From: Hydnum rufescens UP504 | Lineage: Eukaryota; Basidiomycota; Agaricomycetes; Cantharellales; Hydnaceae | Direction of reading: 5' to 3' | Length of the DNA stretch: 64,000 nucleotides | NCBI GenBank assembly: GCA_014904985.1 | Contig: MU129040.1 | Location: 114,989 to 178,988 of the forward strand | Shown here: one piece after another, positions 2,175 through 59,030 of the stretch | Position numbering within the stretch: position 1 is the stretch's first letter | Layout: every line of letters starts with the position of its first letter | Translations under genes and position numbers: made by a program | The notes under the pieces: model-generated | Seen by the model: the letters and a program-made list of their open reading frames with translations, nothing else | Told to the model about the DNA's origin: nothing | Database searches by the model: none

Positions 2175-2387
2175 CGGGGGGTGGCCACAATCCCAACCGC
2201 ATTGGGAAATATCGGTGACCGATGTTATCTCCGTAATTCACACTCATTCATTCCATCCACGTGGGGCTCCACATGCCCGCCAGTCAATTTTAATTACCAT
2301 GACGTAGTGTCCCACACCCCTCTGGGTACTTAAAGCACTAACCAGCTCGTTAAACCTCCCCACTTTCTTGAATAACCCCAAATCATC

Positions 2388-4351: not shown

Positions 4352-4370
4352 GATTCCTCGTGGGTTGTTG

Positions 4371-6792: not shown

Positions 6793-6886
6793 CGTCACAC
6801 TCTTGTGGTGTCGAGTCAGAATCACGTGCATACGTCCGGCCCTAGCCGGGTCTTCCCTGTCGAACAGCAACAACCCACGAGGAATC
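6793..6886. promoter_or_regulatory. Bidirectional promoter DPH3 / HVA22
   Basis: Only 94 bp separate the start codons of DPH3 (minus) and the HVA22-family gene (plus), so both 5' leaders and core promoters must share this stretch or extend into the coding sequences. No TATA box is visible. The stretch contains a CACGTG E-box-type palindrome (6823-6828). Function is inferred from arrangement only. Confidence 0.6.
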
Positions 6887-8472: not shown

Positions 8473-8854
8473 CTAGTACCGCCTTGATCCCCATCGTCGT
8501 CCAGAGGTTCTAGATGTTCTATAGGTTCCAGAGCTTGTGGTGCGACGACGACGACTACGAGAGCCGCAACGGCAGCACAGGATATCAAAGATGACATCAA
8601 ATATGGCGATAAAAACCTGTGTGATAGACGATAAACCGTGAGATGATGTCTGGGGAGATGCAGGCTATCTTCTGAACGTACGTAGGCAATACCACTGACG
8701 ATACCCATGATGAAATTTGCGATTCCATTGACAACTGCTCCAATGAGCCCGGCGATTGCTGATATGACTGAGCCCTACAGGGGGGAAGGTGTGTGTTAGT
8801 GAGAAGAGGTGGGGTGTCCTGTTTGTCGTCGTCCATAGGAGGGGGACTCACCAT
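8473..8854 (-). CDS. MGS family small membrane protein (ATG-only first exon), copy C
   Basis: A 79-residue protein from three exons: 8854-8852 (ATG only), 8774-8682 (31 codons, GSVISAIAGLIGAVVNGIAN...), 8616-8473. Introns begin GTGAGT and GTACGT. The product is a continuous hydrophobic, Gly/Ala/Ile-rich segment of about 42 residues, then FDVIFDILCCRCGSR and a basic Arg/Ser/Thr tail ending RRY. There is no signal-peptide cleavage site; the CCRC after the hydrophobic part could be a lipidation site (inference). Two further members at 12126-12458 and 13221-13532 share the exon layout and the (C)CRC motif. I know similar small hypothetical proteins in agaricomycetes but no function. Confidence 0.8.
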
Positions 8855-9075
8855 GATGATTTGGGGTTATTCGAGAAAGTGGGGAGGTTTAACGAGCTGG
8901 TGTACTGCTTTAAGTACCCAGAGGGGTGTGGGACACTACGTCATGGTAATTAAAATTGACTGGCGGGCATGTGGAGCCCCACGTGGATGGAATGATGATT
9001 GTGAATTACGGAGATAACATCGGTCACCGATATTACCCAATGCGGTTGGGATTGTCCGGCAACCCCCGCATGAAC

Positions 9076-31963: not shown

Positions 31964-32170
31964 TGTAAAGAACGTGCTAACCACACATTATAAGTTTGCT
32001 GTTGTGGCATATTGTCACGTTATGAGCGTACCCGAGGGTCTTTTGACGAGCTACCACGGGCATGCAGTGGGCAAAATTACCCTTGGCGTTGAAACAGAGA
32101 CGAAGCAGATTGGCGGCGACTCGGTTACACGTTTCGGATGCAAAGAGGCGAATCCCCCTCAAGTTGCAAT
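31964..32170. other. Upstream region of DNA ligase I
   Basis: About 200 bp between the ligase start codon and the retroelement insertion. No core promoter motif stands out. Confidence 0.4.
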
Positions 32171-32183
32171 CCATACGCGGGGT
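32171..32183 (+). repeat. Target-site duplication, left copy
   Basis: CCATACGCGGGGT, repeated exactly at 34537-34549 on the other side of the non-LTR element. Confidence 0.85.
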
Positions 32184-34241
32184 ACTGTGACGAAATGCAA
32201 GCAACTAAAACAGGGATCCCACAGGGCAGCTGTGTCTCGCCCATTCTGACTGCATTCTTCTCTCCCTTGATCGATTCTATCAACGCAGCTACCTCAGAGG
32301 AAAAGTTCCCCCAACGCCTTAGACGTAGGATCCTGTCTGACGCTCCCCGAAAGCCATCGACTGTACTCTATGTCGACGACGGAAACTTCCTCACCTTCTC
32401 CAAAACTGTTAAAACGAATAATCATATCTGCCGACTCGCTTACATAGCAGCAGACTACTGGCTAGACGAACCCGGCCTCTTTCTAGACTTCGTCAAAACT
32501 GGTGTTACCCACTTCATGCGCGTACGTCAAGAGCCCTGTGACCTCATCATCCCAGCCTCGAATGATAGACCCCGAAGAGTGATCAAGCACTCCAAAGAGA
32601 CCAAATGGCTGGGAATCATCTGGGATTCAACTCCCCACGTCCGCAAGGTCACAGACAAGGCACTGAGAGCCGTCAATGCCATGTCTATCCTTGGCAACTC
32701 TACAGGCGGAATGCACCACACCCAACGCGGCCTAATATACCTTGGGGGAATTGTTCCAATGATGACCTACGGAGTACCGACGTGGTGGAATTACCAATCC
32801 ACGCATACGAAACTACTCTCTAGCGTTCAGGATCGTGCCCTCCGCACCATATCGGGAGCGTTCAGAACGACCCCAATTTATGCTCTTGATTGAATGCTCA
32901 ATCCCCCCAGTTGACCTTAGAATAGAGTTCATTATCCGACGTGCAGCTAGTCGCTTTGCCAAACTAGATGCCGACAACCCTGTAATTAGCCGCCTCTCCC
33001 GCAACCGATCCCACCTCGTCCCCACAGATTCCAACACCCCCCCTTTCCCTATCCCGCATCCAGCCCGCCGTCGCTTCAAATCAACCAACATCCGTATCCG
33101 AAAAATGACTGAAAAGGACAAGGAGTGTACAAGGATATGGAAAATGGCCCGTACGTTCAACCGTGATGCGGAAATTACACTACTCTGGAACGAGCCACTC
33201 TGGGCACGAACCTTCGACGATTTTGACAACCGCCTAAGACTCACTATCCCAACAAACGAAGCTGGGAAATCACGAAAGGAGTGGGCGCTGGAGCACAAGA
33301 AAGAGGCTAAGAAACTTTCCAACGATGAGTCTTGTTTCTTAATGTACACTGATGGATCACTTTCGTTCGACCGTGGCTCTCGTAAAAATGGATTCGGATA
33401 TGCAGCCTTTCGTCGCGGCAATGTTTTGCTCCAAGGCAAAGGCGGCACCGGACCTCGTGTGGAAGTATACGACGCCGAGATGGAAGGCCTCGCCCAAGCG
33501 GCCGAACACCTCACATCTTGGCTAGACACACCGTCCGACAACGCTCCCCCTGCACATTATCTTTTACTCAGATAACACTGCGGCCCTCCAGCGCATATTC
33601 GCCACCACCCCAGGCATCGCCCAAAATCAATCATCCCGTTTCAGAGGGTGCATCCTTAAGCTCCTCGACGAACGCCCAGCGTGTAAAATCGAGTTGAAAT
33701 GGGTCTCGGATCACCACAAGATCAGAGGCAACGAGAAAGTCGACACCCTAGCGAAAAGCGGATCACTCCCCTCCATATACCCATACTCAGCATCTAACGC
33801 GTATGTCGGCAACTTGAACAACCAACGCCTGCTCAAAGACTGGCAACTACGATGGGCGAACGATCCCTCACAAAACCGGCCCACAGAGTATCTATGTGCA
33901 ACGTCAACCCCCCACTTCTGCGTCTTAGCAAACCATTCAAATCACTCTCGCGAAAATCATTCAGCCGACTAGTCCAATGCCGTACGGGACACGCCTTCAT
34001 AGGCCAATACTATAAGCGTTTTGTACTGGGCGAAAGCGAGGCATGCTGCTGCGGGGAACGCCTCGAAACACGAACCCACATCCTCCTAGACTGCCCCCTG
34101 TACGTCGACTGGAGACCCCTACTCCTGGACTCAGAAGGCGTAATTAACATCACTGATCTCTTCGGAACCGACGCGGGATCTGAGCGCACTTCTAAGTTCA
34201 TTGACCTCAGTGGAGCGTACGAGAAAAAGTCATCCGAATAA
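32184..34241 (+). pseudogene. Non-LTR ORF2 remnant: RT, RNase H, zinc knuckle
   Basis: The RT catalytic motif YVDD is at 32369-32380 with downstream WLGI and the thumb region. RNase H carries TDGS (about 33348), the YDAEMEG glutamate (about 33470), SDNTAA (about 33570) and GNEKVDTLAK (about 33730). The C-terminal finger CCCGERLETRTHILLDC starts at about 34044. The frame changes at about 32885, 33550 and 33860, so no full product is made. Long minus-strand frames opposite this stretch are shadows. Confidence 0.85.
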
Positions 34242-37349: not shown

Positions 37350-38769
37350 AATCTACGTGCGTTAAGAATGTGTAGACACTGGGATGATGAACGGATGAGG
37401 TCAGGGTATTTATGACATACTCAGCTTTGCAGGGTGCATGCGAGGGCATTGCATGTTGCGTTCGGCAGGGACAGTGAGACGTCCCAGTTTCTTTTTCCTG
37501 CGTCATCCCGTTAGGGCTCGTCTAGCCCACCATGTCCAATCTCTGGGTCATCACCTATATAGTCTTACTGTCGTTTTCATGATCCGAGTCGCCGCCGGAT
37601 TTCGCCGCATACGTAAATGGCCGCCAATCTTGTGACCCCGATTTCTCCATGACAAGAGAAACTAGACACTCAAGATTCAGTGTGAGACCTCATATAATAT
37701 ATCTCCAGGTCATGTCGAGGCCAGAATTACAGTTTTTCAATTTTTAGAGATTTTAATTTTCAAACAGTATTTCCCTATTTATGCGCCCAGTTTTGGCCTG
37801 ATGGATACCATTTTTAAATATGTTATTAGGCTCATGGATATCCACCTAATGTCGAAGCCCAATTTTTAAAATTCCCATTTTGAGAATTTTCATATAGCAA
37901 AGTGTACTAAGAGTTGAATCCCAAGTGAAATTTCACAAAATGCTCCTACTCCTCCACAAATTGGCACATGTGTTCACCAACATATATTGAAAATTGTCTC
38001 ATGAGGATTAGTTGATTGCTCCAAAAATGCGAGCTCAAATTATGGCTTAGTGAATGTAGTGGATTTCCAACCAAAAAACTTGTAGACCAATTCATCCAGG
38101 GCACCCGGTCCATTGCCCATTGGAGATATACCTCAAATTGCTTCCTGTAGCACATTCTGTGCATTACAACACCAAAATTCACTAAGGGTATACTTTATAT
38201 CCATCTGATGGTTCAGTGACTCAGATCCAATACCTGTCTTTTCAGTTCCGTCTGCCATGCCCCATCTGGTCAAAAAGTTGGGTAAGAACTTGCTGGGTAG
38301 GAAGCACACTGTTACTGGGACTCCTAGGATGGATTCTCCCCTGGAAGAAATCCAGGTCCTTGAGACAGAAGCAAAGCCCCAATGAAAAAGGTGAAGTCCA
38401 CTCAAAGAAATATTCATCTACTAATAGTCTGAGGCAGGTTCAGCTATGATTATGTGAGGAGAGTGGCAGTGACCCACCTAATGCACCTCAAAAAGGTACC
38501 TCTTAGGTGGGTTCCGGTTGCATTTGCCTTTGACCTAAGAGGTGGTTTTTATATAGGCATGTCTAGGCAGTGTCTAAAGGTGTTCAAAAGATGAAACTTT
38601 TCTAAGTCCCTATAATAGGCGTGCCTATCTGTGCACACCACAGGCACCACTCCCAGGCTTTTTAACTATTTGATAGGGATTCTGGGGTTGATTTGGGCAT
38701 GCCTAAATCAGTTGTGTCTAATGATGTCTAGAGCTTAATTATTGACTTTGAATTGAAGAGGCCTATCCA
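37350..38769. other. Transition region, no gene
   Basis: Base composition turns AT-rich and CpG becomes scarce from about 37640. Short frames only (38216-38449 plus, 38133-38417 minus); none recognised. Confidence 0.5.
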
Positions 38770-39037
38770 GCAGGCTGGTCAGACACTCTTAGGGGCCTTA
38801 AAAGGTATGTCATTTTGATATCTGTATAGTGCCTGATAGGCTTGTATTATGTTTGATATCAAAAAGTGATCAAAAGAGTATTTGATAGCAAAAGAGTTGG
38901 GTTTTGAGCTCAATTTGAGATCAATTTTGTAACTTGTAGAATCCTGCAATGCTTTACTGTACATGTAGTGCGGACAAGACATTTTATTATGCAAAACATT
39001 TACATGGTTAAAGGAAGTATCATTCTGAGTCCAAATC
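38770..39037 (+). repeat. Left terminal inverted repeat, 268 bp
   Basis: Starts GCAGGCTGGTCAGACACTC and ends ...CTGAGTCCAAATC. It is the reverse complement of 43569-43837, nearly base for base. The only difference I noted is T for C in the GGGGCCTTAAAAGG stretch. Confidence 0.92.
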
Positions 39038-39691
39038 TTGTTCTACAATTACTTGGTCCACTGCTGCTATCTAACTGGCTTCCTGCAGCTCAAAGCAGGA
39101 GTAGCTGTAAGATTTTTCCAGGAAATTGGTGTAAGAATTGATGTCAAGGCCAGGAGCTTCATGGGATAGCATCACACAGGAAGTAAGTGCTGCTATGGAT
39201 ATATTTGTCAGCCTTGGAGGGTAACTGGAGCAGGATCAAATTCAAATTATGAGTGGAGGCAGATGGACATATTTGGGTGGGGGTATCAGGACAGGTCCCG
39301 GCAAGCCCAGGAAGGTTGAATGGGTCAGCAGGCTGTACGGGCTTATTGGGGATAATTATGATCATTATTTTTCCTTATTATTAGTTTCTCAGTTCATGGG
39401 GGGGGCCACTCATGGGCTATTAAGTATTATTATTATTATTATTGACTAGTATATACACCTTTGTACTCACGCAGGTCTTCACTTGGCTACTCATGCTTTG
39501 TTTTCACAGGGGTATTCGGGTGTGGGACTTCATGTGGGTGCAGGCACTCAAGCTGCATGTGGTACCTTTTTTGTTCCTCAGGTGCTCTTTGGGTGTTTGG
39601 TCGGTGTCCCATTTGGGCATTCGGTTGGTATTTCGTTTGGGCTGCATTGTTGCAGGGTTCAAGTGTATCAGGCTGTGTTGGACGTCACAAT
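39038..39691. other. Left arm between terminal repeat and array
   Basis: Unique AT-rich sequence with TTATTATTATT runs near 39425-39444. No coding signal. Confidence 0.5.
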
Positions 39692-41061
39692 CTGGAATTA
39701 ATGATATAAGTTTAGTTTAAGTGGCACAAAAGGAGCAGCTCTTGCTGCTCCTTTTGTGCCACGGTATACATTATAATAATAATAAAAACTTACCTCATGG
39801 TACCATGCACCCGCTGCAGCAGGTGCGTGGTACCTCCTTTGTTCCTTGGGTGCTCATGCAGGTCTTTCGTCGGTGTTTCGTTTGGGCATTCGTTTGGGCT
39901 GCATTTGTTTGGGGTTTGCATGGTATCAGGGTGTGTTGGACATCACAATCTGGAATTAATAATATAAAGTTAGTTTAAAACTTAAAAGCAGTGCAAAAGG
40001 AGCAGCTCTTGCTGCTCCTTTTGCACTGCGGTATACGTTAATAAAAAATAACTTACCCCATGGTACCACGCACCTGCTGCAGCGGGTGCGTGGTACCTGT
40101 TTGTTCCTCGCGTGCTCATACAGGTGTTTGGTCGGTGTCTCGTTTGGGCGTTCAGTTGGTAGCAGGTGCATTGGACATTGCCATCTGGAATTAATACTAA
40201 AATGTTAGTTTGAGATGTAAAAGCAGTGCAAAAGGAGCAGCTCTTGCTGCTCCTTTTGGGCTGTGGTATACAGTATAATTAAAAAAAACTCACCTGATGG
40301 TACCATGCACCTGCTGCAGCGGGCGCGCGGTACCTTTGTTGTTCCTCGGTTGCTTGTGCAGGTGTTTGGTTTGGGTGTTTGATTGGTATCGGGGTGTGTT
40401 GGACGTTGTAATCTGGAATTAATAATAAAATGTTAGTTTAAAACTTAAAGGCAGCACAAAAGAAGCAGCTCTTGCTGCTCCCTTTGCGCCACGGTATACA
40501 TTATAATACAAAATAACTTACCTCATGGTACCACGCACCCGCCAAAGTGGGTACGTGGCACTGTGTTTCTCTTGGTCGCGAGGTGTCCAGCGAGTGGGGT
40601 TTGGGGGCCATTCATTTGGGGATTTGGGGTGGTGTGGTTGCACGAGTCATCTGGAATATATAATATACATTAGTTAAGTTAACAAGAGCACAAAAAGAGG
40701 AGTGCTATGGCGCTCCTCTTTTTGTGTTATTGCATGGCAAGGGACTTACGATATAGTACCACACACCTGCAGCGGCAGGTGTGGTACTGCATATTGTCGC
40801 GTACTGCGACGTGTGGCAGTGTGTCAGTGCTGGCATTCACACTGTTGGCTGTGTGGGCTTTCATTGCCGGTTTCTGTGTGCTATTCGTTCGGGTAGTGAG
40901 TAAGAATCTAGAAAAGCTAGAATAAAAAAGGTTCAGTTAGTTATGAATCAAGACCAGCGCAAAAAGAGCAGCTTTTGCTGCTCTTTTTGCACCATTGTAG
41001 CTACTACGAAAACGAACTCACCTAGCGACCACACACCCGCAATGGTGGGTGTGTGGTCGTC
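39692..41061 (-). repeat. Left array: six exon/hairpin-intron units
   Basis: Read on the minus strand, each unit has a 30-36-bp palindrome (GGTACCACGCACC type, or ACCACACACCCGC in the inner units). Four to eight bases later comes a splice donor GTAAGT, GTGAGT or similar. A perfect hairpin around AAAAGGAGCAG/CTGCTCCTTTT with a 6-base loop follows, then a CTAAC-type branch point and a YYAG acceptor. Predicted introns: 39793-39692 (102 nt), 40056-39950 (107), 40293-40185 (109), 40521-40413 (109), 40749-40651 (99), 41021-40916 (106). Hairpins: 39721-39762, 39988-40029, 40223-40264, 40451-40492, 40687-40728, about 40957-40996. The exons are not in a common open frame. Confidence 0.85.
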
Positions 41062-41261
41062 TGTTTCCTTGTTGGGTGGTGGTGTTTGCGTAAAAGAGCG
41101 CAACTCAACACCGGCAATTGCTGGCATCCAAAAAGTGCCCCAGTGCCTGGCACCATGAGTGCCGTATAAATTAGTAGCAAGTAATAGGTGTATAATAAAT
41201 AATAAACAATAAATACTTGCCCAATAAGATCAAGAAGATCAAGACAATCAGTCCAATAAGG

Positions 41262-41580
41262 CATGATATGCTACATTGCAAAGTGGATTGGGCGATTTCT
41301 ACTGTTCAGAATTGGCCAAAATTTAAATATATTGCTGGCATATATGTATCCTATGTGGGTGATTAATTATTTCGGATGCTCTCTCCATTTTTCAATTTTT
41401 CACACCTTCAATTCCCTATTTAGGGAATTGAAAGCATGAAACATTGAAAAATGGAGAGAGCATCTGAAATAATTAATCGCCCATGTAGGATACATATATG
41501 CCAGCAATATATTTAAATTTGGGCCAATTCTGAACAGTAGAAATCGCCCAATCCACTTTGCAATGTAGCATATCATGCCT
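41262..41580. repeat. Central palindrome of the mirror element
   Basis: Two arms of about 150 bp (GGCATGATATGCTACATTGC... and its reverse complement) meet around CAATTCCCTATTTAGGGAATTG at 41410-41431. The mirror symmetry continues outward with decreasing identity to at least 41030 and 41835. The arms hold TATTTAAATT/AATATATTTAAA stretches that could serve divergent promoters. Confidence 0.9.
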
Positions 41581-41787
41581 TATTGGACTCTGACTGATTG
41601 CCCTGATCTTCTTGGTCTTTTTGGGCAAGTATTTATTGTTTGTTATTCATTATACACCTATTTACTTGCTACTAATTCATATGGTACTCGTGGCACCAGG
41701 CACTTGGGTGCTTTTGGATACCGGCAATTGCTGGTGTTGAGTTGCGCTCTTTTACCCAAGCACCACCACCCAAACAAGGAAACAGAT

Positions 41788-43302
41788 GACCACACACCCA
41801 CCATTGCAGGTGTGTGGTCACTAGGTGAGTTTCCTTTCATAGTAGCTACAATGGCGCAAAAAGAGCAGCTAAAGCAGCTCTTTTTGCACTGCTTTGAGTC
41901 TTTTTTACTAACATATTTTTTATTACTTTAGATCATGGCTTGCTCCAAGGCAGCAGATGAAACTGGCCAAACGACGAAGGCCCAACTGGCCATGGCCCAG
42001 ACGGCCCCATACCAGCCAACATGAGAAAGAAAACTGCAAAAATGCGACCAATGCGACCAATGAGTGCCACATGATGCCTGAACCACACACCCGCTGTAGT
42101 GGGTGTGTGGTTCTCTATATGAGGTGAGGCCCCCCCCCAATATATCCAACTGCACAAAAAGAGCAGCGAAAGCTGCTCTTTTTGTGCTGGTTTTAATTTT
42201 TAACTAACATTCTTTTACTCTATATCATGAATGTGAAAGCTCGCCCAACGAATATCCAGGGATATGCTAAATGACCCCCCCCCCTTTCTCGTACACCATG
42301 ACCACAAAAACTGCAATCACAAACAGACAACACGCCCTGTGAGTGGGCGCATGAACCACACACCCACCGTAGCGGGTATGTGGTTCTCTATATGAGATGA
42401 GTCCCGCCCCTACCCCCCAATATACAACCACACAAAAAGGAGCAGTGAAAGCTGCTCTTTTTGTGCCGGTTTTAATTTCTAACTAACAATTAATTTTTCT
42501 AGGTTTTTCGCCTCATCTATGACCAACAAGATGAAGAACCCCCCAACAAGGACGAATGGAACAGATGCCCGCCGAACGAAGACCTGACAAATGAACCCAG
42601 AGCCCCCTGAAGCCCACAACATGAACATGTGCCAAGGGTTGCACGCACAACGAAAACCGCATGGGCGAAGGACCACCCGCCAGATGAAGATACGAAAGGA
42701 CGTGGAGCCAATGAGCAGCCCCAGTAACCATGCACCCGCCCTGGCGGGTGTGTGGTAGTATTTGAGGTGAGGTACATACAGCTGCGCAAAAAGAGCAGCA
42801 AAAGCTGCTCTTTTTGCACTGGTTGTGATTTTCAACTAACTTGTATCTTTTATTCTATTTCAGGAAGGTGAAAACCTGCCCAATGACAACCCGGGGATAC
42901 ACCAAACGATAACCTGGCCCACACAGTGAATGCGCAGGAACAACAACCCACGGGATGGACAAAACGAGACCGCGGGAAGCCCATGCAGCACACACCCGCC
43001 CCAGTGGGTTGTAAGTATTCTCTATACCCTCATGCAAAAGGAGCAGCTGGGGCTACTCCTTTTGCGCAGCTTGTCTTTTTCTGTCTTTTTTCACTAATGT
43101 TTTGTTATCCTGATGCTCGACTTGAAACCCACGTGAACCACCAACTGAAGGTTGCCAAATGATCAACCGAATGAAATATGAAACCTGACTCAACACAACA
43201 CAACCTGCTGGGCGGAACAATGGGCTGCACCCGCTGCAGTGGGTGTAAGGTTTTTTCGATTGTAGTAGATAGAGCTGCAGCTCTGGCTGCTCTTTCTGTG
43301 CT
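41788..43302 (+). repeat. Right array: six exon/hairpin-intron units
   Basis: This is the mirror counterpart of the left array on the plus strand. Upstream palindromes are near 41788, 42082, 42352, 42725, 42989 and 43227. Intron hairpins (AAAAAGAGCAG...CTGCTCTTTTT) are near 41850, 42152, 42430, 42781, 43032 and 43268. Clear introns are 41825-41931 (GTGAGT ... ACTAAC ... TTTAG) and 42767-42863 (GTGAGG ... ACTAAC ... TTCAG). In the other units either donor or acceptor is degenerate. Units are more diverged from each other than the terminal repeats are. Confidence 0.8.
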
Positions 43303-43568
43303 ACTGTGGATGAGCTTGCTGGATGTATGTATACAATAATAAATAAATAAACAATAATAATAATAGTATTTAAATCAATGTTAGTAATAATATGCTATCC
43401 CATGATAGCATGGGTTTTTAGCCTATAATCTTATCACTGGGGCTAGGATTGACCTAAGGTCACCCTCTTGAAATTATTTGATATCAAAGGATTTTGATGC
43501 CTCTTAGGCTTTTGATTTGATGCAGTTTGACATACCTATTGAGGCCCCTCTAAGTGGCTGACCGAGGT
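43303..43568. other. Right arm between array and terminal repeat
   Basis: AT-rich with AATAATAAATAAATAAAC runs near 43335-43370. No gene. Confidence 0.5.
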
Positions 43569-43837
43569 GATTTGGACTCAGAATGATACTTCCTTTAACC
43601 ATGTAAATGTTTTGCATAATAAAATGTCTTGTCCGCACTACATGTACAGTAAAGCATTGCAGGATTCTACAAGTTACAAAATTGATCTCAAATTGAGCTC
43701 AAAACCCAACTCTTTTGCTATCAAATACTCTTTTGATCACTTTTTGATATCAAACATAATACAAGCCTATCAGGCACTATACAGATATCAAAATGACATA
43801 CCTTTTAGGGCCCCTAAGAGTGTCTGACCAGCCTGCT
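43569..43837 (-). repeat. Right terminal inverted repeat, 269 bp
   Basis: Inverted partner of 38770-39037. It ends GACCAGCCTGC at 43837, eleven bases before an unrelated open frame begins. Confidence 0.92.
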
Positions 43838-43847
43838 TCCTCCTGAC

Positions 43848-44717
43848 ATGCATGGCAGGCAGACAGCCTGTACTGCTGAACTCACTCGGATTTTTGAAGA
43901 ACAAAATGACACAGCAATTGAGCCAAAGTTTCCTTGGAGCACAATCCCGGTGTTCCTTATTCAACATCATTTATACATCTCTGGCTGGCTGTCGAAATCC
44001 GAGTTTCCTAGTGTACTTGGGTTGATCATATCCTCACTGTGGACAGAACATTGGACCAACTTGTGGAATTGGTTGTTTGCTGTGGAGGAGCACAAGTGCC
44101 TTGTAGTTAAATGGCTTGACATACCGGCCAATGAGGACATTTCAGATGATACTTGTCTCATCAGAGACAACAACAACTCAATGTTGTCTGTAGTGGACTG
44201 GCATGAGCATATCAGGAAACAAAAACCTGTTGCCTCTGGAAATGTTGGGACTTCAGGAGAACAGGCTAGGGAAGCGGGAAAATGATGGAAGACGAAAGAA
44301 GTACCTGGGGGTGGGTCAGGGAAGGGAAAGAGGAGGAAGGTGCTTTCAAATCTGATTATAGATGAGGATGAGAGTCCTGAGCCATTGGTTGGAGGTGAGA
44401 GCCCTGAGCCATTGGTGGGAGGTGAGAGCCTTGAGGATCACCAAGTTTCTGTGCCACTGGAACCCTTACAATCCACCATGTTTGCAAAGTTTGCACCAGG
44501 GACATTGTTCAACCCATCCCTGACCAACTACAACTTTGACTTTGATGAGCAGATTCACTTCGACATGAATGGTTTGAATCCTAACGGGGGGACAAATTTG
44601 CTTGACTTTGTCAACCCAGCCAGTCCTGCTGCCAACACACTTAATCTTGACTTCTCTCAATTCCCAGACCTTGATATGTCTGAAAATCAAGATTTGTTAT
44701 TGTGCCCAATGCTATAA
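43848..44717 (+). pseudogene. Unrecognised ORF with one in-frame TGA and acidic repeat
   Basis: One frame of 290 codons is interrupted once, by TGA at 44283-44285. The first part (MHGRQTACTAELTRIFEEQN...) is Trp-rich (EHWTNLWNWLF). After the stop comes a basic patch GKGKRRK, then two copies of ESPEPLVGG and an acidic, Asn/Phe-rich end (FDMNGLNPNG, FSQFPDLDMSEN). A basic nuclear-targeting-like patch followed by an acidic region suggests a regulatory or transposon-encoded protein, but no domain is recognised. It lies directly between the mirror element and a second hairpin-intron array. Confidence 0.45.
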
Positions 44718-44841
44718 TATTTTCCAGTACATATTTCATTAATAGATTTCTCTGGCAGTTGCTGACATTGAGTTGTGCTCTCCTTGCAACTACATACCCT
44801 GAACCAACCAAACAGGGAGCCACCTAGAAAGGCAGGTACAG

Positions 44842-45554
44842 ATGACCACACCCATTGATGTGGGAGTGTGGTCATATGAGGTAAGTTTTTTTTTGGATTG
44901 TAGTAGATACAACAGCGCAAATAGAGCAGTGAAAGCTGCACTTTTTGTGCTGCTTTGAATATCATTACTAATGTTGTTCTTTTATTATTTTAGATCCTGG
45001 CCTGGTTCGGAGACCCAAACGAAAACCTGAGGGCCCCATGTTAGGGTCCAAATGACGAAGTGCTAACTGAAAACATGCCAAATGGAAAGTGCAACAAATG
45101 ACATACATGAAGCCACAGAGAAAAATAGGCAGCCACACACCTGCTGCAGTGGGTGTGTGGCAATATAAGGTATGTATTTTTTTTAATAGCTATGAATGCA
45201 CAAAAAGAGCAGCAGTCACTGCTCTTTTTTGCACAAGTTTTAATCTTAACTAACCTATTTCCTATTTCCTATCCTAGGTCCAGATGTCCCATCCCAATGT
45301 GCAAAGTCACCTGGCTGTGAGCTCCAACCCATGGACCTGCCAGAATTGCAATGAAACCCAGCACCCAATTACACACAAGCACACAAACAAATGAAGGGCA
45401 ATGCACGCACACAGCCACAGAGTAAACGAGGGAGCTACACACCTGCCCCAATATAAGGTAAGTTTTTTTAATAGCTGCAAATGCACAAAAAGAGCTGCTG
45501 CTGCTGCTCTTTTTGCACAGGTTTTACTTTAACTAACAGATTATTTTCCATAAG
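44842..45554 (+). repeat. Second hairpin-intron array, three units
   Basis: These have the same unit design as in the mirror element. Palindrome 44842-44871 precedes an intron at 44881-44993 (113 nt). A palindrome near 45132-45161 precedes an intron at 45170-45277 (GTATGT ... CTAAC ... CCTAG, 108 nt). A half-palindrome near 45435 precedes an intron at 45458-45554 (97 nt). Hairpins lie at about 44913, 45196 and 45482-45519. The 100 bp before the first unit (from about 44755) resemble the innermost unit of the mirror element (41720-41830), so the array starts at the same point of the larger unit. Confidence 0.8.
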
Positions 45555-45593
45555 TGTCCCACCTGACATTGTGGAGTCAGGAATCAAACACGA

Positions 45594-45860
45594 GAACCCA
45601 CACAGCCACAAAGGCATGCAAACATACAAACTGGGCCCACACAAAGGGGCAAATGAAGGCCCACATGCCTGCTGTGGCAACATGAGAACCCACCCAGCCA
45701 CAAAGGCATGCAAACACACAAACTGGGGGCCTGCACAAAGGGCCAAATGAAGGCCTACACACCTGCTGCAGCAATGTGAGAACCCATGCAGCCATGAAGG
45801 CATGCAAATGCATGAACCAGGGCCCATGTGAAGGGGCAAATGAAGGCCTGCTGCAGCAGA
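45594..45860 (+). repeat. Minisatellite, about 92-bp unit, three copies
   Basis: Units contain AGAACCCACxCAGCCACAAAG, GGCATGCAAAC and GGGGCAAATGAAGGCC in fixed order. They follow directly on the last hairpin intron. Confidence 0.8.
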
Positions 45861-46139
45861 TGTGTGTGAATCCAAGGTGTTAGATCTTTAGCATAGGTGT
45901 AGGCCTACAGACTGTACTACTCCATATGTTTAATAATAATAAGCAAATAATCCTAATGCCTGATAACCCCAGATAGTCTGCTAAGTGTTGAGAAAGATGT
46001 CAATTTGACATCCAAAGATTGTCAATTGACATCAAAGAAAAAATAGGCCTGTTAGGATGACTAGATGAGGCATTTGTCCTGCCTATTAAGGCCTATCCAG
46101 TTGGCTGACTGAGGTGGATTGTTGTGTGATGGTCCAGAA
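45861..46139. other. No gene
   Basis: Short AT-rich stretch between the minisatellite and the chromovirus remnant. Confidence 0.5.
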
Positions 46140-46379
46140 GATGTGGAGTGCAGAATGCTGATGAGAGAGGACTGCCAGGAAGTCACTGGAAGGACCTTGG
46201 AAGACCCAGACACCCACAGAGGGCAACACTGATGATGATGACAAACTCTTGACACTGGAAAAAGAAGATGCCATCTTTGCAGCCTACTTCCCCAGCAAGT
46301 CTGAGCACTCCAAGATTGTCTGAGTGACAAGCACCCCCTCTGAGAGGCTGGCCAAAGCTGCCAAAGCCAGGGCAAATGA

Positions 46380-49300
46380 ACCAGTGAAGACATTCGAGGA
46401 GCCTGTCCCAGAAGAATTCCATTACTTCTGAGATGTGTTTTCCAAGGACTCCTTTGATCAGCTCCCTGGCCGGAAACCATGGGATCACCACATCAAGTTC
46501 AAGGAGGGAACCCAACTACCTCCCCCAGCCAAACTCTTCCCTCTCCCCAGCTGAGCAAAAGGAACTTGATGACTTCCTGAAGGAAAACCTTGCCTCTGGT
46601 TGGATCCACCCATCAAAGTCTCCAATGGCTGCCCCAGTGTTCTTTGTCAAGAAAAAGGATGGAGGATTCCATTTAGTCCAGGATTACTGGAAGCTCAATG
46701 ACATCATGGTCAAGAATGCATACCCCTTGCCCCTAATCTCTGATGTCATTCACTGACTCTGAGGAGCCAAAGTGTTTGGGAAACTGGACTTATGGTGGGG
46801 CTTCCAGAACATCTGGATAGCAGATGGAGAGGAATGGAAAGTAGCTTTCCAGACTAACTGTGGCCTCTTCAAACCCTTGGTCATGTTCTTCAGACTTTGC
46901 AACTCCCCAGGCACCTTCCAAAACATGATCAATGATGTCCTCCAAGAGTGGATTGACAATGGAGTGTGCATCGTATATCTGGATGATATCTTGAGCTTTG
47001 CCAAGACATGAGAGGAGTATGTCCATGGAGTCCATGAGATCTTACAGACACTCCAGGAGAACAAGCTCTTCCTGAAGCCAGAGAAGTGTGAGTTCTTCTG
47101 AGACCGGATTGAGTATCTAGGAATGGTGTTCACTCCAGATCATGTGGAGATGGACCCTATCAAGGTTGCAGGTGTGATGGAATGGCCAGAACCCAAGAAC
47201 TTGAAGGAGATGCAGTCATTCCTGGGGTTCATCAACTTCTATTGCCAATTCATTCAAGACTTCACTAAGGTCGCCAGACCATTGAATGACCTCACCCAGA
47301 AGGACACCCCCTTCTGATGGACTGATGCCAAACACAATGCCTTTGTCAAGTTGAAAACCCTTGTCACCTCTGCACTGATCCTAGTCTTCCCATCTGAGTC
47401 TGGACACTTCTGAGTAGAAGCTGATGCCTCTGGATATGTGACTGGAGCAGTACTCTCACAACTCCAAGAGGATAGGAAGTGGCATCCAGTAGACTTCCTG
47501 TTGAAGAGTTTGTCAGAAGCTGAAAGGAATTATGACATCTATGACAAGGAACTCCTGGCCATTGTCAGAGCTCTAGAGGCATGGGGACACTACTTAGAGG
47601 GTTCCCCACATCCAGTCGAGATCCTGATGGACCATCAGAACCTTCAGTACTTCAGGACTGCACAGAAGCTGAACCAGAGACAAGCCCAGTGGAATATTTT
47701 CCTCTCCTGGTTCAACTTCACCCTCCAGCACTGCTCCAGATCCCAGTCTGGGAAGCCAGATGCCCTCTCATGACAAGCAGATCACCCATGGGGAGACTCT
47801 GACAACTCTGATGTAGTCCTACTGAAGCCCACAGCCTTCCATTCCTGGGCTCTGGACACCTTGGAGGTTGTGGCAGTGGAAGGACCTAGCCAGAGCTTGA
47901 TGGCTTGGATCAAGAGGGCAACAGAGATTGATGACAAAGTCATCCAGGTCATCAAGGAGTTAAATGGAGATGGGCCAAAGGCACACCTGAAGGATTGGGA
48001 ACTCCAAGGATCTCTGGTTCTCTTCCATGGATGCATCTATGTTCCACTGGACTCCAAACTCCATCATGATTTAGTCCATGAACACCATGGCACTCCAACC
48101 ATGGGCCACCCTGGATGATGGAAGACATACAAACTTGTATCTCGGCACTACTGGTGGCCAGGGATGTCATGATATGTTGCAACCTATGTTTCCACCTGTG
48201 ACACCTGTAACTGAACCAAGACTTTCCCATCCAAACTGTCCAGAACACTCCATCCCAATCCAGTCCCAGACCACTGATGGAAAGCCATATCTGTGGACAT
48301 GATCATGGAGCTCCCAGAGTCACATGGATTTGACAGCATCATGATTGTAGTTGACCATCTCTCCAAACAAATTCATGCCATGCCCACCACCACAACAGTT
48401 GACTCTGCCAGTGTTGCTCACCTCTTCTGGGACAATGTATGGAGAGATCATGGACTCCCAGAGACAATCATTAGTGACCAGGGTATGACCTTCACCTCCA
48501 AGTTCATGAAGGAACTAAATTCCCTCCTTGGAATCACAGCAAATGTGTCAACAGCATACCACCCATGACAGATGGACAGATGGAATGAGTCAACCAGGAG
48601 ATTGAGCAGTACCTCTGGATCTTTGTCAACCACCAACAAAATGATTGGGCAGACTGGCTCCCTATGGCAGAATGTGCATACAACAACTGGATTCACTCCT
48701 CCACCCACAAGACCCCATTCTGCCTTGACTCCAGCCAAGACCCTCACCTCAGTACTGAACCAATCTGCTGTGGAGTTGTTGAGGCAGCCACAGACTTTGT
48801 CACATGGTGTTGGAGGGATAAAAGCCCACTACATACATACCTCATCTGGGCCCAACTACCTCCTCAAACAAATCCATATTTCTATATTTCTCTCATATCC
48901 ACACTCATTATTCCTTTGGCCATCAAATAGCATGGATTTCATATCCCAGGAACCATGGTCCTTTTGCTTTTCCTCCACCCTATATATGAGACAATTACTT
49001 GTCCATCCTTGGCACTTCAACAGGCCATCCAGATTGTACTTATTTCCAAGCCAGTTTAACCAGGCTATAGCAATTCAACTTGCTTACTTTTGCCACCTAT
49101 TGTATCACTATCGGCATATCCAATTGCCTCAAGGGCAGTATTTGACCTTGGATTATGTAACACAACTCCCACTTTGACTCACCGACTTGTCACATGTTAA
49201 ATAGGGGCTATTCCAATACTCTCAAGGAGTATTTTGCTAATATCTTCACCATTTTGATCGGATTGACTTGGAAAAATGGCGCCCAGAAAGCTACGATCAA

Positions 49301-52409: not shown

Positions 52410-52470
52410 TCAACCAGTGGCAGCATTGGTGCCCTTGTCAGCACCTGTCATTCCCTCACTCCCTGCATTA

Positions 52471-53389
52471 TAGAAGAAGGATTGGGAGCTCTGATGACTG
52501 TCAAATCAAACTCTGGTTCAGCCAGTGTGTAGATGGGAGACTGTATTTCTGTTTTTATTCAATGGGCTGGTTCACTCTGATGGTTGATCACTCTCTAACA
52601 AGTTGTATATGATATTCAGTGGAGGATAAGGTTGTGGTATGGACTAGCTATGGTCAATGATATATTGTGGATGCCTGTGAAAGGCTTATATGTGTTGTAT
52701 TGAACTGTTTACTGCTATTTGTGTGTACCTATTTGTGTTCTCCTGGTCAAAATGCAGATTCTAAGGTGGGTTCTAGACTAGTTTAAGCTTGATTCAGTGT
52801 GTCAATGTGTTTCTTTCTTCTTCTGACTTGACTTTGTTATTACTCACCTTTCCTTGGATGTCCAGCAACTCTAACCTTAGGTCCTGCAACTATCCTTGGC
52901 TTAGTATTTCATGTAGAGGGCTTCCAGTGACTTAGTCTTAACAACCTTGTATATGACTTAGCTCCAGATGGCTTTAGATCAGTACTCTCTTCAGATGCAA
53001 GCAGATTTGTAGACAGTAGTATATTCCAGTAGTGAGGAGATGGAGGGATACAGGAAAATCTACCAGCTTGTATACCTTTCTGAAGGTGGCTGTGTTTAAA
53101 GAATATGACTCACTCCTAGGTGAGTCATATGTGAGAACAATAGGGTTGTCAAGGAGGGTGAGTCATTCATAAACAGAACAAAAGGGTTGTCAAGGAGGTG
53201 TTATCTTTCTTATCTGTGAAGTTCTAGAAGTTATTTGTGGCAATGGGAGATGAAATCAAAGGATATTTCTGAGTTCTTGGAGATTAATTTGTTTGTAGTC
53301 CAGCGGTTAAGATGTTTTTGTTGCTGGTTGATAATGGGGACAAGTGCATGGGATGGGATTCGATGCAGAAACAACAGTTTGCATCTGTT
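52471..53389 (+). repeat. Repeat family R, copy 1 (5' part)
   Basis: Starts TAGAAGAAGGATTGGGAGCTC and runs to the point where copy 2 begins in inverted orientation. It is the inverted match of 54916-53923 and the direct match of 56258 onward. Confidence 0.88.
53103..53130. promoter_or_regulatory. Paired TGACTCA palindrome in repeat R
   Basis: ATATGACTCAC and GTGAGTCATAT flank a 6-bp centre, giving two Gcn4/AP-1-type sites in inverted arrangement. A related arrangement is at 54245-54280, and a diverged one is at 57043-57072. Binding is inference only. Confidence 0.4.
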
Positions 53390-54916
53390 GTGGAAGATAA
53401 AAACATCCAGTATCAGAAAATGCAAATATCCATTGATCCCAGCCTATGGAATGATCATGTGACCTATTACAAAATTAATTATGGCTATGCATGAAAACAG
53501 AGTTCATTCAATTACTCCTTCAGTTTTTATCGGAGAGGTACGCCCATATAACTATTGGAAAGCCATGATTCACACCTTTCTAATGGTACCAAACATAAGT
53601 TGAATGGACCAGAACTGCACTCTCCAGACCAATATTACTATCAAAATCCGAAATTTCTAGTAAAAATGGATTTCTCTGTCAGTTCACATCCAATCCTCCT
53701 GAAATAACCTTGCCTAGAAGGATATAAACAATCCGCATCCAACGGTATTGAGCGCACAAAGAACAGATTAAAACTGAGCTCTATAGAACAATATTATTAT
53801 CAGAATCAACACCCATTAGTATTTTATGAATTTCTCTGTCGGTTTGCATCTGATCTGCTTGGAACCACTGCGCCCAGAAAGCTGTTAGGAATCTGCATTG
53901 AATGATACCAAGAACGTCTATTACGGATGCAAACTGTTGTTTCTGCATCAAATCCCATCCCATGCACTTGTCCCCATTATCAACCAGCAGCAAAAACATC
54001 TTAACCACTGGACTACAAACAAATTAATCTCCAAGAACTCGGAAATATCCTTTGATTTCATCTCCCATTGCCACAAATAACTTCTAGAACTTCACAGATA
54101 AGAAAGATAACACCTCCTTGACTACCCATTTGTTCTGTTTATGAATGACTCACCTTCCTTGCAACCACTTTATGAATGACTCACCCTCCTTGCAACCACT
54201 TTATGAATGACTCACCCTCCTTGACAACCCTATTGTTCTCACATATGACTCACATATGACTCACCTAGGAGTGAGTCATATTCTTCAAACACAGCCACCT
54301 TCAGAAAGGTATAAAAGCTGGTAGATTTTCCTGTATCCCTCCATCTCCTCACTACTGGAATATACTACTGTCTACAAAATCTGCTTGCATCTGAAGAGAG
54401 TACTGATCTAAAGCCATCTGGAGCTAAGTCATATACAAGGTTGTTAAAGACTAAGTCACTGGAAGCCCTCTACACGAAATACTAAGCTAAGGATAGTTGC
54501 AGGACCTAAGGTTAGAGTTGCTGGACATCCAAGGAAAGGTGAGTAATAACAAAGTCAAGTCAGAAGGAGAAAGAAACACATTGACACACTGAATCAAGCT
54601 TAAACTAGTCTAGAACCCACTTTAGAATCCGCATTTTGACCAGGAGGACACAAATAGATACACACAAATAGCAGTAAACAGTTCAATACAACACATATAA
54701 GCCTTTCACAGGCATCCCACAATATATCATTGACCATAGCTAGTCCATACCACAACCTTATCCTCCACTGAATATCATATACAACTTGTTAGAGAGTGAT
54801 CAACCATCAGAGTGAACCAGCCCATTGAATAAAAACAGAAATACAGTCTCCCATCTACACACTGGCTGAACCAGAGTTTGATTTGACAGTCATCAGAGCT
54901 CCCAATCCTTCTTCTA
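53390..54916 (-). repeat. Repeat family R, copy 2 (full, inverted)
   Basis: Read on the minus strand it starts TAGAAGAAGGATTGGGAGC at 54916 and ends ACTGGATGTTTTTATCTTCCAC at 53390. This is the same end as copies 3 and 4. It abuts copy 1 tail to tail. Confidence 0.88.
54140..54235. repeat. Short tandem repeat in copy 2
   Basis: About three copies of a 31-bp unit containing ACTTTATGAATGACTCACC and CCTTGCAACC; expanded relative to copy 1. Confidence 0.75.
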
Positions 54917-54924
54917 TGCCATAA

Positions 54925-55457
54925 TAGATGTTCATGGTATCATTTGATGCATATTTCTAACAGCTTTCTGGGCATGGTGGTTCTGAGCAGATCAGATGCG
55001 AACTGACAGAGAAATTCATAAAATACTAATGGGTGTTGATTCTGATAATAATATTGCTCTATAGAGCTCAGTTTTAATCTGTTCTTCACATGCTCAGTAC
55101 TGTTGGATGAGGATTTTTTTATATCTTTCAAGGCACAGTTATTCCGAGAGGATTGGATGTGAACTGACAGAGAAATTTGTTTTTTACTGGAAATTCCAGA
55201 TTTTGATAGTAATACTGGTCTGAAGAGTGCAACTTTTGTCCATTTAACTTGTGTTTTGTACCATTCGAAAGGTGTAAATTGTGGCTTTCCAAGAGTTATA
55301 TGGGTGTACCTCTCCGATCAAAACTGGTGGAGTAATCGAACAAATTCTGTTTTCATGCATAGCTGTAATTAATTTCATAATAGGTCACATGATCATTCCA
55401 TAGGCTGGGATCAATGGATATTCACATTTTCTGATACTGGATGTTTTTATCTTCCAC
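54925..55457 (+). repeat. Repeat family R, copy 4 (3' third)
   Basis: Matches the last roughly 530 bp of family R (AACAGCTTTCTGGGCATGGTGG ... CTGGATGTTTTTATCTTCCAC), ending at 55457. Confidence 0.82.
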
Positions 55458-56257
55458 AGATGGTGAACACTTTTAATTGCAGCCCCTTGCAATGTCTTTT
55501 TGTCTTCTTCTGCCTTATACAACTGAACCCAAATTGCCTTTCCTTGTGTAGTACCACCATTTCCATCCTTCAAACCAAAGCGAGATCTCCTGCAAGTTTA
55601 TACTTTGATTTTGATGATAGAAGTCACTTATTGTTGGGTATGGATCTCTTAATATCTGCATTTTCAATAGGTTTTTCTTTGTATAAGTCCCAAATTATTA
55701 AGCAAATACCCACTTTGGATGACATTGTTCAGGTGGAGATCAAGAGGATCTGTGGAGAAGGTTCGATGAGGCACAGATATGTTCTCTGGAACATGGAGAA
55801 GAAGGACAAATTCAATTTTGAGGTCATGACGTAATGTGGGTCGATTGTTGAACAGTTCTCTGAACTTGTACATTGTCCAATCGACTCTTTTGTCTTTATA
55901 ATGCCATTGAATGTGACTTGGGGATTTGGGAAATAACAGATGATCATATGGGATTCAAGGTGGGTGAATGGTTCAGGATAGAGATAGTTGAATTGCTGGT
56001 AAATGATCGTGTGAAGTTCCAATGGCATGGTGAACACTTTTGATTTGTACCTTGGGGATAGTCATTCGATTTGCTGTTATGTCATTTTTGCATCCATAGG
56101 TCTGTAATCATGTGTCAACCTTTAATTTCGCTTAGGCCTCCCATGAGCTCAGATTCCTTCATTAATCAACAGGGTCACTTGTTTTCACATTTCACTATTG
56201 TTCCCTTTTTATATCAATGTCATTAGGTGGAGGTGGAGGTTTATTTTGTAATCGGTA
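55458..56257. other. Decayed coding-like stretch
   Basis: Overlapping open frames on both strands: plus 55460-55834 and minus 55729-56037 (MPLELHTIIYQQFNYLYPE). Neither is recognised; the minus-strand frame looks more protein-like. Confidence 0.3.
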
Positions 56258-57965
56258 TAGAAGAAGGGTTGGGAGCTCTGATGACTGTCAAATCAAAATC
56301 TGGTTCAGCCAGTGTGTAGATGGGAGACTGTATTTCTGTTGTTATTCATTGGGCTGGTTCGCTTCAATGGTTGATCACACTCTGCAAGATGTGTATGGTG
56401 TCCAGTGGAGAACAGGAAGGGATATGGACTAGCTGTAGTCAATGATATATTGTTTGGGATGCTTATAGAAAGGCTTATACGTCATAGGGGATGCTTGTAG
56501 AAAGGCTTATACGTCTGGGATGCTTATGGAAGGCTTACACATTGTGTAGGATGCTTATGGAAAGGCTTATACATCTGGGATGCTTGTGGAAAGGCTTATA
56601 CATTGTTTGTGTTGTGTTGGTCTGTTTACTGATATTTGTGTATACTTGTTTACGTTCTCCTGGTCAAAATGCGGATATCTGTGGGTTATAGACTGGTCAG
56701 TGCTTGGTTAGTCTTTGTTAGTATATTTCTTTCTTCTTTCGTCAAAACCTGATACATATTTCATTATGCTTACTTTTCCTTGGATGTCCAGCAACTCTAA
56801 CCTTAGGTCCTGCAACTATCCTTGGCTTTAGTGATTCGCGTAGAGGGCTACCAGTGGCTTTGTCTCAACAACCTTGAAGATGACTTAGCTCCAGATGGCT
56901 TATAGATAGACTGTTCTTTAGAGGCAAGCAGAAAAGTTGACAGTGGTTGACAGTGATGATTTCCAGAGAGGAGATGATTGTGTGGGGGTACAGGAAATCT
57001 ACCAGCTTTTATACCTTTCTGAAGGTGGCTGTGTTTAAGAAATATGACTCCCCCATGGGTGAGTCATATGTGAGTCATAGGTGAGAACAAAAGAAAAATA
57101 ACAAGATGATGTAATAATGCGGTCATAGCTGAGTCATTCATAAGGAGAACAAAAGGAATCATGAGGGGTGATGTCATAGTGATGTCATTCATAAAGAGAA
57201 CAAAAGGAATCATGAGGGGGGGTGATGTCACCAATTTGCTGAGCATGTGGAATGCTTGGAGCATGTGGTCTCTGACCATGTGGAGCATTCTGGAGGCGAA
57301 ATGAAAGGATATCTCCGGGTTTTGGAGATTAATTTGAGCATAGTCCAATGGTTAAGGTGTTTTGTTGTTGGTTGATAATGGGGACAAGTGCATGGGATGG
57401 GATTTGATGCAGAAACAGCAGTTTGCATCCGTAATAGACGCTCTTGGTATCATTAGATGTGGATTCTTAACAGCTTTCTGGGCGCGGTGGTTCCAAGCAG
57501 ATCTGGTGTAAACTGACAGAGAAATTCGTTTTTTACTGATGGGTGTTGATTCTGATAGTAATATTATTCTGTAGAGTTCAGTTTTGATCTGTTCTTCGCG
57601 TGCTTGGTACCGTTGGATGCGGACTTTTTATATCTTTCTAGGCGCAGTCGTTTTGAGAGGATTGAATGCGAACTGACGGAGAAATTCGTTTTTTACTGGA
57701 AATCCCGGATTTTGGTAGTAAAATTGGCCTGGAGAGTGCAGTTTTGGTCCATTCAACTTGTGTTTGGTACCGTTCGAAAGGTGTGAATCGTAGCTTTCTA
57801 AGCGTTATATGGGCGCACTTCTCTGATCAAAACTGACGGAGTTATAGAACGAATTCAATTTCTGCGTGTAGCCGTAATTAATTTCATAATTGGTCATGTG
57901 ATCATCCAAAAGCTGGGAATGGTGTGATTTCGCGTTTTCTGATACTGGATGTTTTTATCTTCCAC
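56258..57965 (+). repeat. Repeat family R, copy 3 (full)
   Basis: Direct-orientation full copy from TAGAAGAAGGGTTGGGAGC to the common end TTTTTATCTTCCAC at 57965. It contains an expanded 33-bp minisatellite (56456-56612). It retains more CpG than copy 2, so it is probably younger. Confidence 0.86.
56456..56612 (+). repeat. 33-bp minisatellite, five units
   Basis: Units of GGGATGCTTATAGAAAGGCTTATAC type with small changes. Copies 1 and 2 of family R have only a single unit here. Confidence 0.85.
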
Positions 57966-59030
57966 ATTGGTTATACAATGATTGGGATTGTGTGGGTGAA
58001 ATATGGGTGGGGGCACTCTTCATCCTCCAAATCTCCAAATACTATGATAAAATGAGTGATCTGAATGAGGAGGCGACCATCCAAACTGAAGTCTTTGATT
58101 CAGATTTGATTCAGGCAAGCAAAATAGAAGTGTTCGTTGTTGTTTTTGGTGTCAGGATAAAATGCACCAAATTCCCCTACTTGTGGCAATAGGAAGGGCA
58201 AATTGTGGGTAGTTATGTATACTTTTAAGCCGATTTCAGTTTCTGGCATTGTTGTGAAGTCCTGACATGAAAGAGAAATTCCATCAGCAGTTGAATTTGA
58301 ATCACTGCCTGAGTTCTCGATATCATCTAGGTTCCTGTTTGTTTAGTGAATGTCCTTAATGATTGCAGTTTTCACATACTGGTTGAGCTCATGACTTTTT
58401 CGAGGTTGTAGCAGGGGGTTTTGGATTTGCAGATGAAGGTGTTTGGTCCACGTTTTTCAATGATTTTGTATCCAGTTGTTTGACTTCTGGCACATGACTG
58501 AATTTGCAATTTCATATGCATTTATGGCATTTTCATGATGGAGGAGGATTTTGTTTTTAGTGGTGGTTCAATGATGATGAGGGTTTATTTGGGGAGGTCA
58601 TGGGTGAATGTAGGAAGGTAGATCGCCTCTCTATTGACATTTCCATACACAGTTAGCCTTATCTGCACCCTTACATGAAAATAAGAATCATTGGAGTAGT
58701 CTTGGGTCATGCAGTATGATTCAATGTGGGCGATCATATACGTTTGGATCGTGGTTGTTGTGTTGGGGCAAAAGTAATCCCTTCATCTGATGTGAAGATT
58801 TAGAATAGGGTCATTCCAGTCCCAGATGTGCTGCACAAAAAAAACCATGTGCCCCACTGTATCATCCAGGATGTATACACTGTTGAGGTTGGATGGGAGT
58901 TCTGCGTGGGTTTCAGAAATGCTGTCCATAAATGCATTGGTAGGCATAATTGATGGTGTTCTACCCCTTTTTAGGTAAGCATTTATATAAGTAGCATTGT
59001 TTCTGACATACATTCTTTTTAGAGTTGTGT
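57966..59030 (-). pseudogene. Decayed unrecognised ORF
   Basis: The minus-strand frame from about 59013 (MYVRNNATYINAYLKRGRTP) runs to 58783. It continues after a TGA, read as RDYFCPNTT...HIESYCMTQDYSND, to about 58590. Another block is at about 58350-58000 (FTTMPETEIGLKVYITTHNL). The stops are TGA, as in the neighbouring elements. A transposon origin is likely from the context, but no domain is recognised. Confidence 0.4.

Follow-up and report, generated by a model that had tools for sequence, protein, structure and literature searches.

The arrays of spliceosomal-intron-like units described here, from the fungus Hydnum rufescens UP504, lie between positions 39,692 and 45,554 of a 64,000-nucleotide stretch of contig MU129040.1 (assembly GCA_014904985.1), which we call the window. 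The window is part of a 63.2-Mb assembly of 539 contigs. Our best explanation is that the array forms the interior of non-autonomous DNA transposons with terminal inverted repeats (TIRs), which would be relatives of KDZ (Kyakuja-Dileera-Zisupton) elements and probably mobilized by KDZ-type transposases. Each of the two arms would be a non-coding RNA gene that runs from a central leader outwards to the TIR, with about 3 to 8 units in which T-poor exons alternate with spliceosomal introns of ~107 nt. Taking the architecture and the splicing together, we consider it fairly probable that each arm is a non-coding RNA gene, transcribed outwards and spliced.

Within each unit, an exonic palindrome (A) would close the exon about 12 nt 5' of the donor, and a second hairpin (B) would lie between donor and branch point. 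Splicing would free introns with a stable hairpin B, much as small nucleolar RNAs (snoRNAs) are freed from snoRNA host genes, and the element might profit from a protein of its own, or an RNA factor of the host, that binds hairpins B and A. On our best reading, hairpin B is the best conserved structured part of a putative arm RNA; that such intron-delivered hairpins are recognized by a protein of the element or the host is a guess, and a rather doubtful one.

Array elements, their ends and the probable KDZ link

The initial annotation described a single array. The units belong instead to two mobile elements, one at 38771-43569 and one ending at 46116, with the following parts.

38771..43569, no strand: array element 1, a 4.8-kb array-only TIR DNA transposon with copies on C33 and C357 and no transposase open reading frame (ORF)
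38771..39095, no strand: left end of element 1, with TIR CAGGCTGGTCAGACACTCTTAGGGGCC
41058..41255, minus strand: conserved left-arm leader, putative promoter and exon 1 (approximate bounds)
41250..41589, no strand: central palindrome with 169-nt arms at 95%, the head-to-head meeting point of both leaders
41583..41788, plus strand: conserved right-arm leader, putative promoter and exon 1 (approximate bounds)
43530..43569, no strand: right TIR of element 1, reading inward as CACCTCGGTCAGCCACTTAGAGGGGCC on the minus strand
43838..46116, plus strand: second element, partial (left bound not known), with an orphan companion gene remnant, a three-unit right arm, and TIR CACCTCAGTCAGCCAACTGGATAGGCC at 46116 (minus strand)

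The copies on C33 and C357 match element 1 from 38771 to 43569-43572 at 89-95% identity, the former with an insertion close to its right end. A further copy, on C76, is rearranged, and the common part runs only from 40921 to the right end. No ORF of at least 150 aa (stop-to-stop) lies within 38771-43569, so that element 1 encodes no KDZ transposase, and we do not claim it as an autonomous KDZ element. Directly after its right end stands an inverted, near-identical copy of its left end (269 nt, 99.6-100%; 38769-39037 vs. 43569-43837), which reads as a recent rearrangement or an aborted transposition.

Three array elements are flanked by exact 8-bp target site duplications (TSDs): ACCACAAC on C33, GACAGAAC on C42, and GCATGCAT on C56. 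Array elements have CA..TG termini and mutually similar TIRs, and in these three cases TIRs and TSDs enclose the whole array element, not a single unit. Over its left ~325 bp, element 1 shares 88% identity with a KDZ-encoding locus on C9, at the KDZ-side end of that locus, and the KDZ domain occurs in at least 154 places in the genome (150 of 584 candidates scored). This evidence points to the array elements as non-autonomous relatives of KDZ elements, and the backbone, a KDZ-like non-autonomous TIR element, is of a known kind.

As for the KDZ genes themselves, the one on C1 has CA..TG at its bounds together with an 8-bp repeat that is exact but of low complexity, and on C56, C9, C1, and C189 a TIR comes after the KDZ gene at a distance of about 0.25-0.93 kb. 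At the C309 locus, a leader, three units, and finally a TIR come after a KDZ gene, and the interval from gene to arm yielded no TIR. A placement of the C56 KDZ gene inside the array element was considered and rejected; a TIR separates the gene from the downstream units, which makes it a neighbor.

The two-armed layout recurs across the genome. Both strands carry units in 24 of 29 unit-bearing stretches, and all 24 switch from minus to plus, giving arms that point outwards; five of them also switch from plus to minus, where they border on a neighbor or where a unit is weak. The 5.3-kb element on C42, for example, has eight minus units and then six plus units, and the array on C2:641000-646500 has eleven hairpins (five minus, six plus) at a spacing of 265-282 bp within each arm. 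By eye, a TATA-like stretch stands at the center of the C2 array. In the window element, sequence identity between the arms is confined to the region near the center. A conserved leader precedes unit 1 (64 matches aligned; most agree, and some are doubled or spurious), and head-to-head leaders carry AT-rich TATTTATT-like stretches. The leaders of the outward-pointing arms look like a divergent promoter, and we infer that they act as promoters and that transcription runs outwards.

At three loci, namely the second element of the window, C9, and C122, an orphan companion gene stands just upstream of the arm; its remnant in the window lies at 43818-44720. The family has 118 genome matches at E up to 0.001, many of them distant. 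No Pfam domain was found in the companion protein, and its predicted structure is poor (mean pLDDT 48.7), with no confident fold.

Units in the window and across the genome

Six units had been seen in the left arm, at least two clear ones in the right arm, and three at 44.8-45.6 kb. Six left-arm donors are indeed present, and hairpin B accompanies all of them; CTAAC or CTAAT is found by pattern in five of the six. The right arm holds two intact and four damaged units. In the three units at 44.8-45.6 kb, donor, hairpin, and branch are present throughout, and the YAG of the third is missing. The predicted intron length of 97-113 nt holds wherever all signals are found.

40917..41021, minus strand: left-arm intron 1, GTGAGT, hairpin B, CTAAC, TAG; 105 nt; donor 41021
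40651..40749, minus strand: left-arm intron 2, GTAAGT, CTAAT; 99 nt; donor 40749
40413..40521, minus strand: left-arm intron 3, GTAAGT, CTAAC; 109 nt; donor 40521
40185..40293, minus strand: left-arm intron 4, GTGAGT, CTAAC, CCAG by eye (scripted choice: an earlier TAG at 40197); donor 40293
39950..40056, minus strand: left-arm intron 5, GTAAGT, CTAAC; 107 nt; donor 40056
39692..39793, minus strand: left-arm intron 6, GTAAGT, non-standard branch ACTAAAC (not CTRAY), CCAG at 39692; 102 nt, by eye; donor 39793
41825..41931, plus strand: right-arm intron 1, intact, 107 nt
42124..42229, plus strand: right-arm unit 2, GTGAGG donor, hairpin B, CTAAC; acceptor not found
42396..42502, plus strand: right-arm unit 3, damaged donor; hairpin, CTAAC, and acceptor present
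42767..42863, plus strand: right-arm intron 4, intact, 97 nt
43011..43111, plus strand: right-arm unit 5, donor, hairpin, CTAAT; acceptor not found
43245..43311, plus strand: right-arm unit 6, GTAAGG donor, decayed hairpin, no branch
44881..44993, plus strand: second element intron 1, 113 nt; donor 44881
45170..45277, plus strand: second element intron 2, 108 nt; donor 45170
45458..45551, plus strand: second element unit 3, donor 45458, hairpin, CTAAC; YAG missing at the expected place
42083..42110, plus strand: exonic palindrome A, an example directly 5' of a donor
42152..42187, plus strand: intronic hairpin B, an example with a perfect 16-bp stem and a GAAA loop

Further core matches to palindrome A start at 40069, 40534, 40760, 41030, 41791, 42357, 42731, 42991, 43226, 44847, and 45134. 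Folded singly, six window units gave z scores of -4.9 to -11.9.

In these window units, the order is palindrome A, a GTRWGT donor, hairpin B (~40 nt), CTAAY, and YAG, with some copies damaged. The proposed layout of donor, hairpin, branch, and acceptor stands, with the correction that an exonic palindrome lies directly 5' of the donors. The core of hairpin B occurs, with at most two mismatches, in 6,164 places in the 63-Mb genome (reversed control, 0). Requiring hairpin, CTAAC, and TAG together in a strict pattern gave 672 matches (control, 0), although such matches are no test of CTAAC and TAG, which the pattern demands; among the strict-pattern matches listed, loop and flank vary widely. Profile searches of fetched stretches returned 206 distinct units, 68 of them at <85% mutual identity, and this first profile includes a few wrongly oriented rows. 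Good donors were found in 175 of 239 hairpin-anchored units (GTGAGT 75, GTAAGT 54, GTATGT 15, GTGAGG 14, others fewer) and a full intron, on average 107 nt long, in 144. Median spacings are 12 nt from palindrome A to donor (128 units) and, in the 144 units with a full intron, 38 nt from donor to hairpin core, 25 nt from core to CTAAY, and 24 nt from CTAAY to AG. GTGTGT occurs inside palindrome A.

Constraint on the units and competing readings

When 229 hairpin-anchored units were scored without selecting on splice signals, donor, branch, and acceptor occurred together in 125 in sense, in none in antisense, and in 29 of 1,145 controls whose flanks had been shuffled; 104 of the 229 lack one or more of the strict signals. 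The intron-like units first noticed at 39.7-45.6 kb are thus real and extend genome-wide. In addition, as had been observed in the window, splice signals and hairpin are kept while spacers vary: at a spacer divergence of 0.556, pairwise mismatch is 0.034 for the branch, 0.082 for stem B, 0.132 for stem A, 0.132 for the acceptor, and 0.187 for the donor. This saturation test used 198 of the 206 first-profile units, whose wrongly oriented rows may blur the result, and the best conserved part scored is the branch CTnA, which lies outside both palindromes. In young pairs (spacers <0.1), donor divergence is about that of the spacers, stem A diverges more, stem B equally or half as much, and the branch less. 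Our reading of this pattern is that copies are under selection while they are active and decay once they are dead. Donor, branch, and acceptor are ordered on one strand and under constraint, as in a spliceosomal intron, and splicing of the units is strongly supported by sequence; we infer that the units are spliced and that their hairpins may act as RNA.

Compensatory changes in the stems, which the initial annotation had raised, were found in part. RNAalifold on 52 units gave 29 paired columns, 18 of which have a kept both-sided change in at least one unit, and hairpin B has more GU pairs than AC mismatches (77 vs. 47, p 0.009), which leans towards RNA. The GU and AC counts were made on oriented units, whose kinship makes the p values optimistic. 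Hairpin A has no such excess. A search of the window against Rfam gave no match above the gathering score, a looser one of 41650-43330 gave 15 hits, all below threshold (E up to 5), and a tRNA scan of the window (bacterial code) gave none. A pattern scan of IMG/VR found five stretches with an exact hairpin match, which we take as chance.

The predicted exons (108; mean 201 nt) have a T content of 0.131 over their whole length and 0.113 without the last 45 nt, and the introns one of 0.365. An open frame is present in 46 of the 108, against a shuffled mean of 40.1 (20 shuffles). Among 103 exon pairs, indel lengths modulo three are 52/179/77 (0/1/2), so that 256 of 308 are not multiples of three, and substitutions fall almost evenly over the three positions (658/661/688). 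Because neither indels nor substitutions show a frame, we take the exons as non-coding; together with the conserved leader before unit 1, this supports the multi-intron non-coding RNA that the initial annotation had offered as one idea. A query spliced from an array arm matches six annotated Hydnum proteins. Across public models, the palindrome is read in at least two frames, and one model, P0029, appears to continue into a hairpin, so that splicing there is not in all models. As a caution, arrays of this kind carry protein-gene annotations in public databases.

For comparison with host introns, a chaperonin gene on C27 has exon gaps of 59, 64, 61, and 56 nt, and GT..AG introns were recovered by pattern in two of these four gaps (62 and 67 nt). 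An array intron minus its hairpin measures ~107-40 = 67 nt, near the host gaps of 56-64 nt in this one gene.

Several observations count against the explanation given here. With regard to the backbone, the window copy has no clear TSD and its right flank is rearranged, and the flanks of the C357 copy likewise have no matching TSD. Moreover, 8-bp TSDs occur in hAT elements too, so that the link to KDZ elements depends on the homology of the termini. A KDZ gene leading into an arm, with no intervening TIR found, is seen on C309 alone, where the other end could not be located; at the KDZ loci on C1 and C189, the 14 and 10 kb examined contain no unit, and the array is thus not needed there. With regard to the units, right-arm units 2, 3, 5, and 6 are decayed in the window copy (four of six), and CTRAY is, by pattern, absent from both recovered host introns, which does not confirm the host branch consensus from this one chaperonin gene. 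Exon lengths modulo three are uneven (47/25/36 of 108), although the copies are related. The public gene model that agrees with the spliceosomal-intron-like description, P0026, has the same peptide across the predicted junction, but public models may be ab initio. Finally, in hairpin A GU pairs and AC mismatches number 45 and 35 (p 0.31), or 37 and 37 in a coarser count, which fits a DNA-level palindrome equally, and the primary sequence of the hairpins is conserved, so that DNA binding is still compatible.

These last two points, together with the inverted placement of the palindromes across both arms, favor a reading in which the arms act at the DNA level, with palindromes that serve as subterminal binding or cruciform sites for a transposase, as in Foldback/Galileo, and intron signals that are bystanders from an ancestral intron. 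We consider this unlikely. A branch that is strictly conserved while lying outside both palindromes speaks against a role at the DNA level alone, and splice signals confined to one strand, T-poor exons, and a conserved leader are further points against it.

Rather less likely is that the arms provide splice camouflage, in which, with both arms facing outwards, any host read-through would meet sense introns in the last arm, and splicing would limit the damage of an insertion so that the element is tolerated. The consistent minus-to-plus switch and the many donors and branches close to consensus are in its favor, yet it leaves hairpins A and B and the conserved central leaders unexplained. In addition, the flank of the C33 copy looks by eye like the pol gene of a retrotransposon and not like a host gene.

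The initial annotation had also suggested introner-like multiplication, with each unit a singly multiplying mobile intron and the arrays as clusters. The units do bring their own splice sites, and hairpin copy number is very high. However, in three cases it is the element as a whole that TSDs and TIRs surround, palindrome A is not part of the intron, and none of six isolated-looking loci was solitary, all of them holding at least three hairpins (six of thousands, a small sample), which makes this reading very improbable. Least probable of all is a decayed multi-exon protein gene amplified within a transposon, for which the uneven exon lengths and the proteins called in arrays by public annotation would speak, whereas the frameless indels and substitutions, the near-shuffled number of open frames, the palindrome read in several frames, and the lack of any protein found conserved across families speak against it.

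Rest of the window and comparison with known systems

Outside the array elements, the window holds a second large palindromic structure, whose 2.2-kb inverted copies (2168-4371 vs. 6867-9075) are 96.6% identical, with a further inverted copy at 73% (179-2076). In its AT-richer right part, long repeats, both direct and inverted, cluster at 52470-57966 (inverted ones 81-100% alike). Of 27 window ORFs with at least 150 aa, 10 were searched against Pfam; integrase domains were found at 62568-63536 (minus strand) and a weak reverse transcriptase match at 32093-32893, and the other eight gave no domain. By eye, 46200-49200 resembles a decayed pol gene and is retrotransposon-like, as is the integrase stretch.

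Introns are usually regarded either as parts of genes or as what transposons turn into. In this case, rows of introns in non-coding sequence seem to be kept under selection by a transposon lineage. If the units are spliced, this would be selection on splicing itself for a selfish, non-coding end, and the arrays would offer a natural library of related introns for the study of splice signals and intron structure; in addition, the idea of transposons using spliced hairpin RNAs would become testable. We put forward tentatively, at somewhat less than even confidence, a new kind of mobile element, in which a divergent pair of multi-intron non-coding RNA genes has arisen by serial amplification of an exon-intron unit, each intron supplies a conserved RNA hairpin, of which this one mushroom genome now has over 6,000 copies, and the spliced hairpin aids mobility or escape from silencing. 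No description of an outward multi-intron non-coding gene payload in a transposon was found in the open-access papers searched, in agreement with the initial annotation, which knew of no such element.

Four known systems are nevertheless close in part. Host genes for snoRNAs and mirtron-like intronic RNA clusters combine non-coding exons with a conserved structured RNA in each intron; the Hydnum arrays differ in being transposon-borne and in matching no Rfam family at threshold. Foldback/Galileo elements, as far as described in PMC3688188, have long TIRs and multiple transposase sites, and the Hydnum arrays resemble them in long inverted arms and repeated motifs, whereas the Hydnum units have splice signals and the arms in the window are alike only near the center. 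Among fungal KDZ transposons, 8-bp TSDs are given for Zisupton and a Dileera, and 7-bp TSDs without TIRs for Kyakuja; the main text of that paper does not use "hairpin" or "subterminal" and has "intron" for gene models only (Kojima 2025, PMC12730594). The array elements share with KDZ elements, to the extent covered there, the 8-bp TSD, the CA..TG termini, terminal homology to a KDZ locus, and a genome with many KDZ copies, but have no transposase. Introners, in turn, are likewise repeated, DNA transposon-linked units with donor and acceptor; those described for ascomycetes have neither TIRs nor TSDs, and "Hydnum" does not occur in the main text of the source (Gozashti 2022, PMC9860276). In Hydnum, by contrast, it is the whole array of introns and non-coding exons that appears to move as one.

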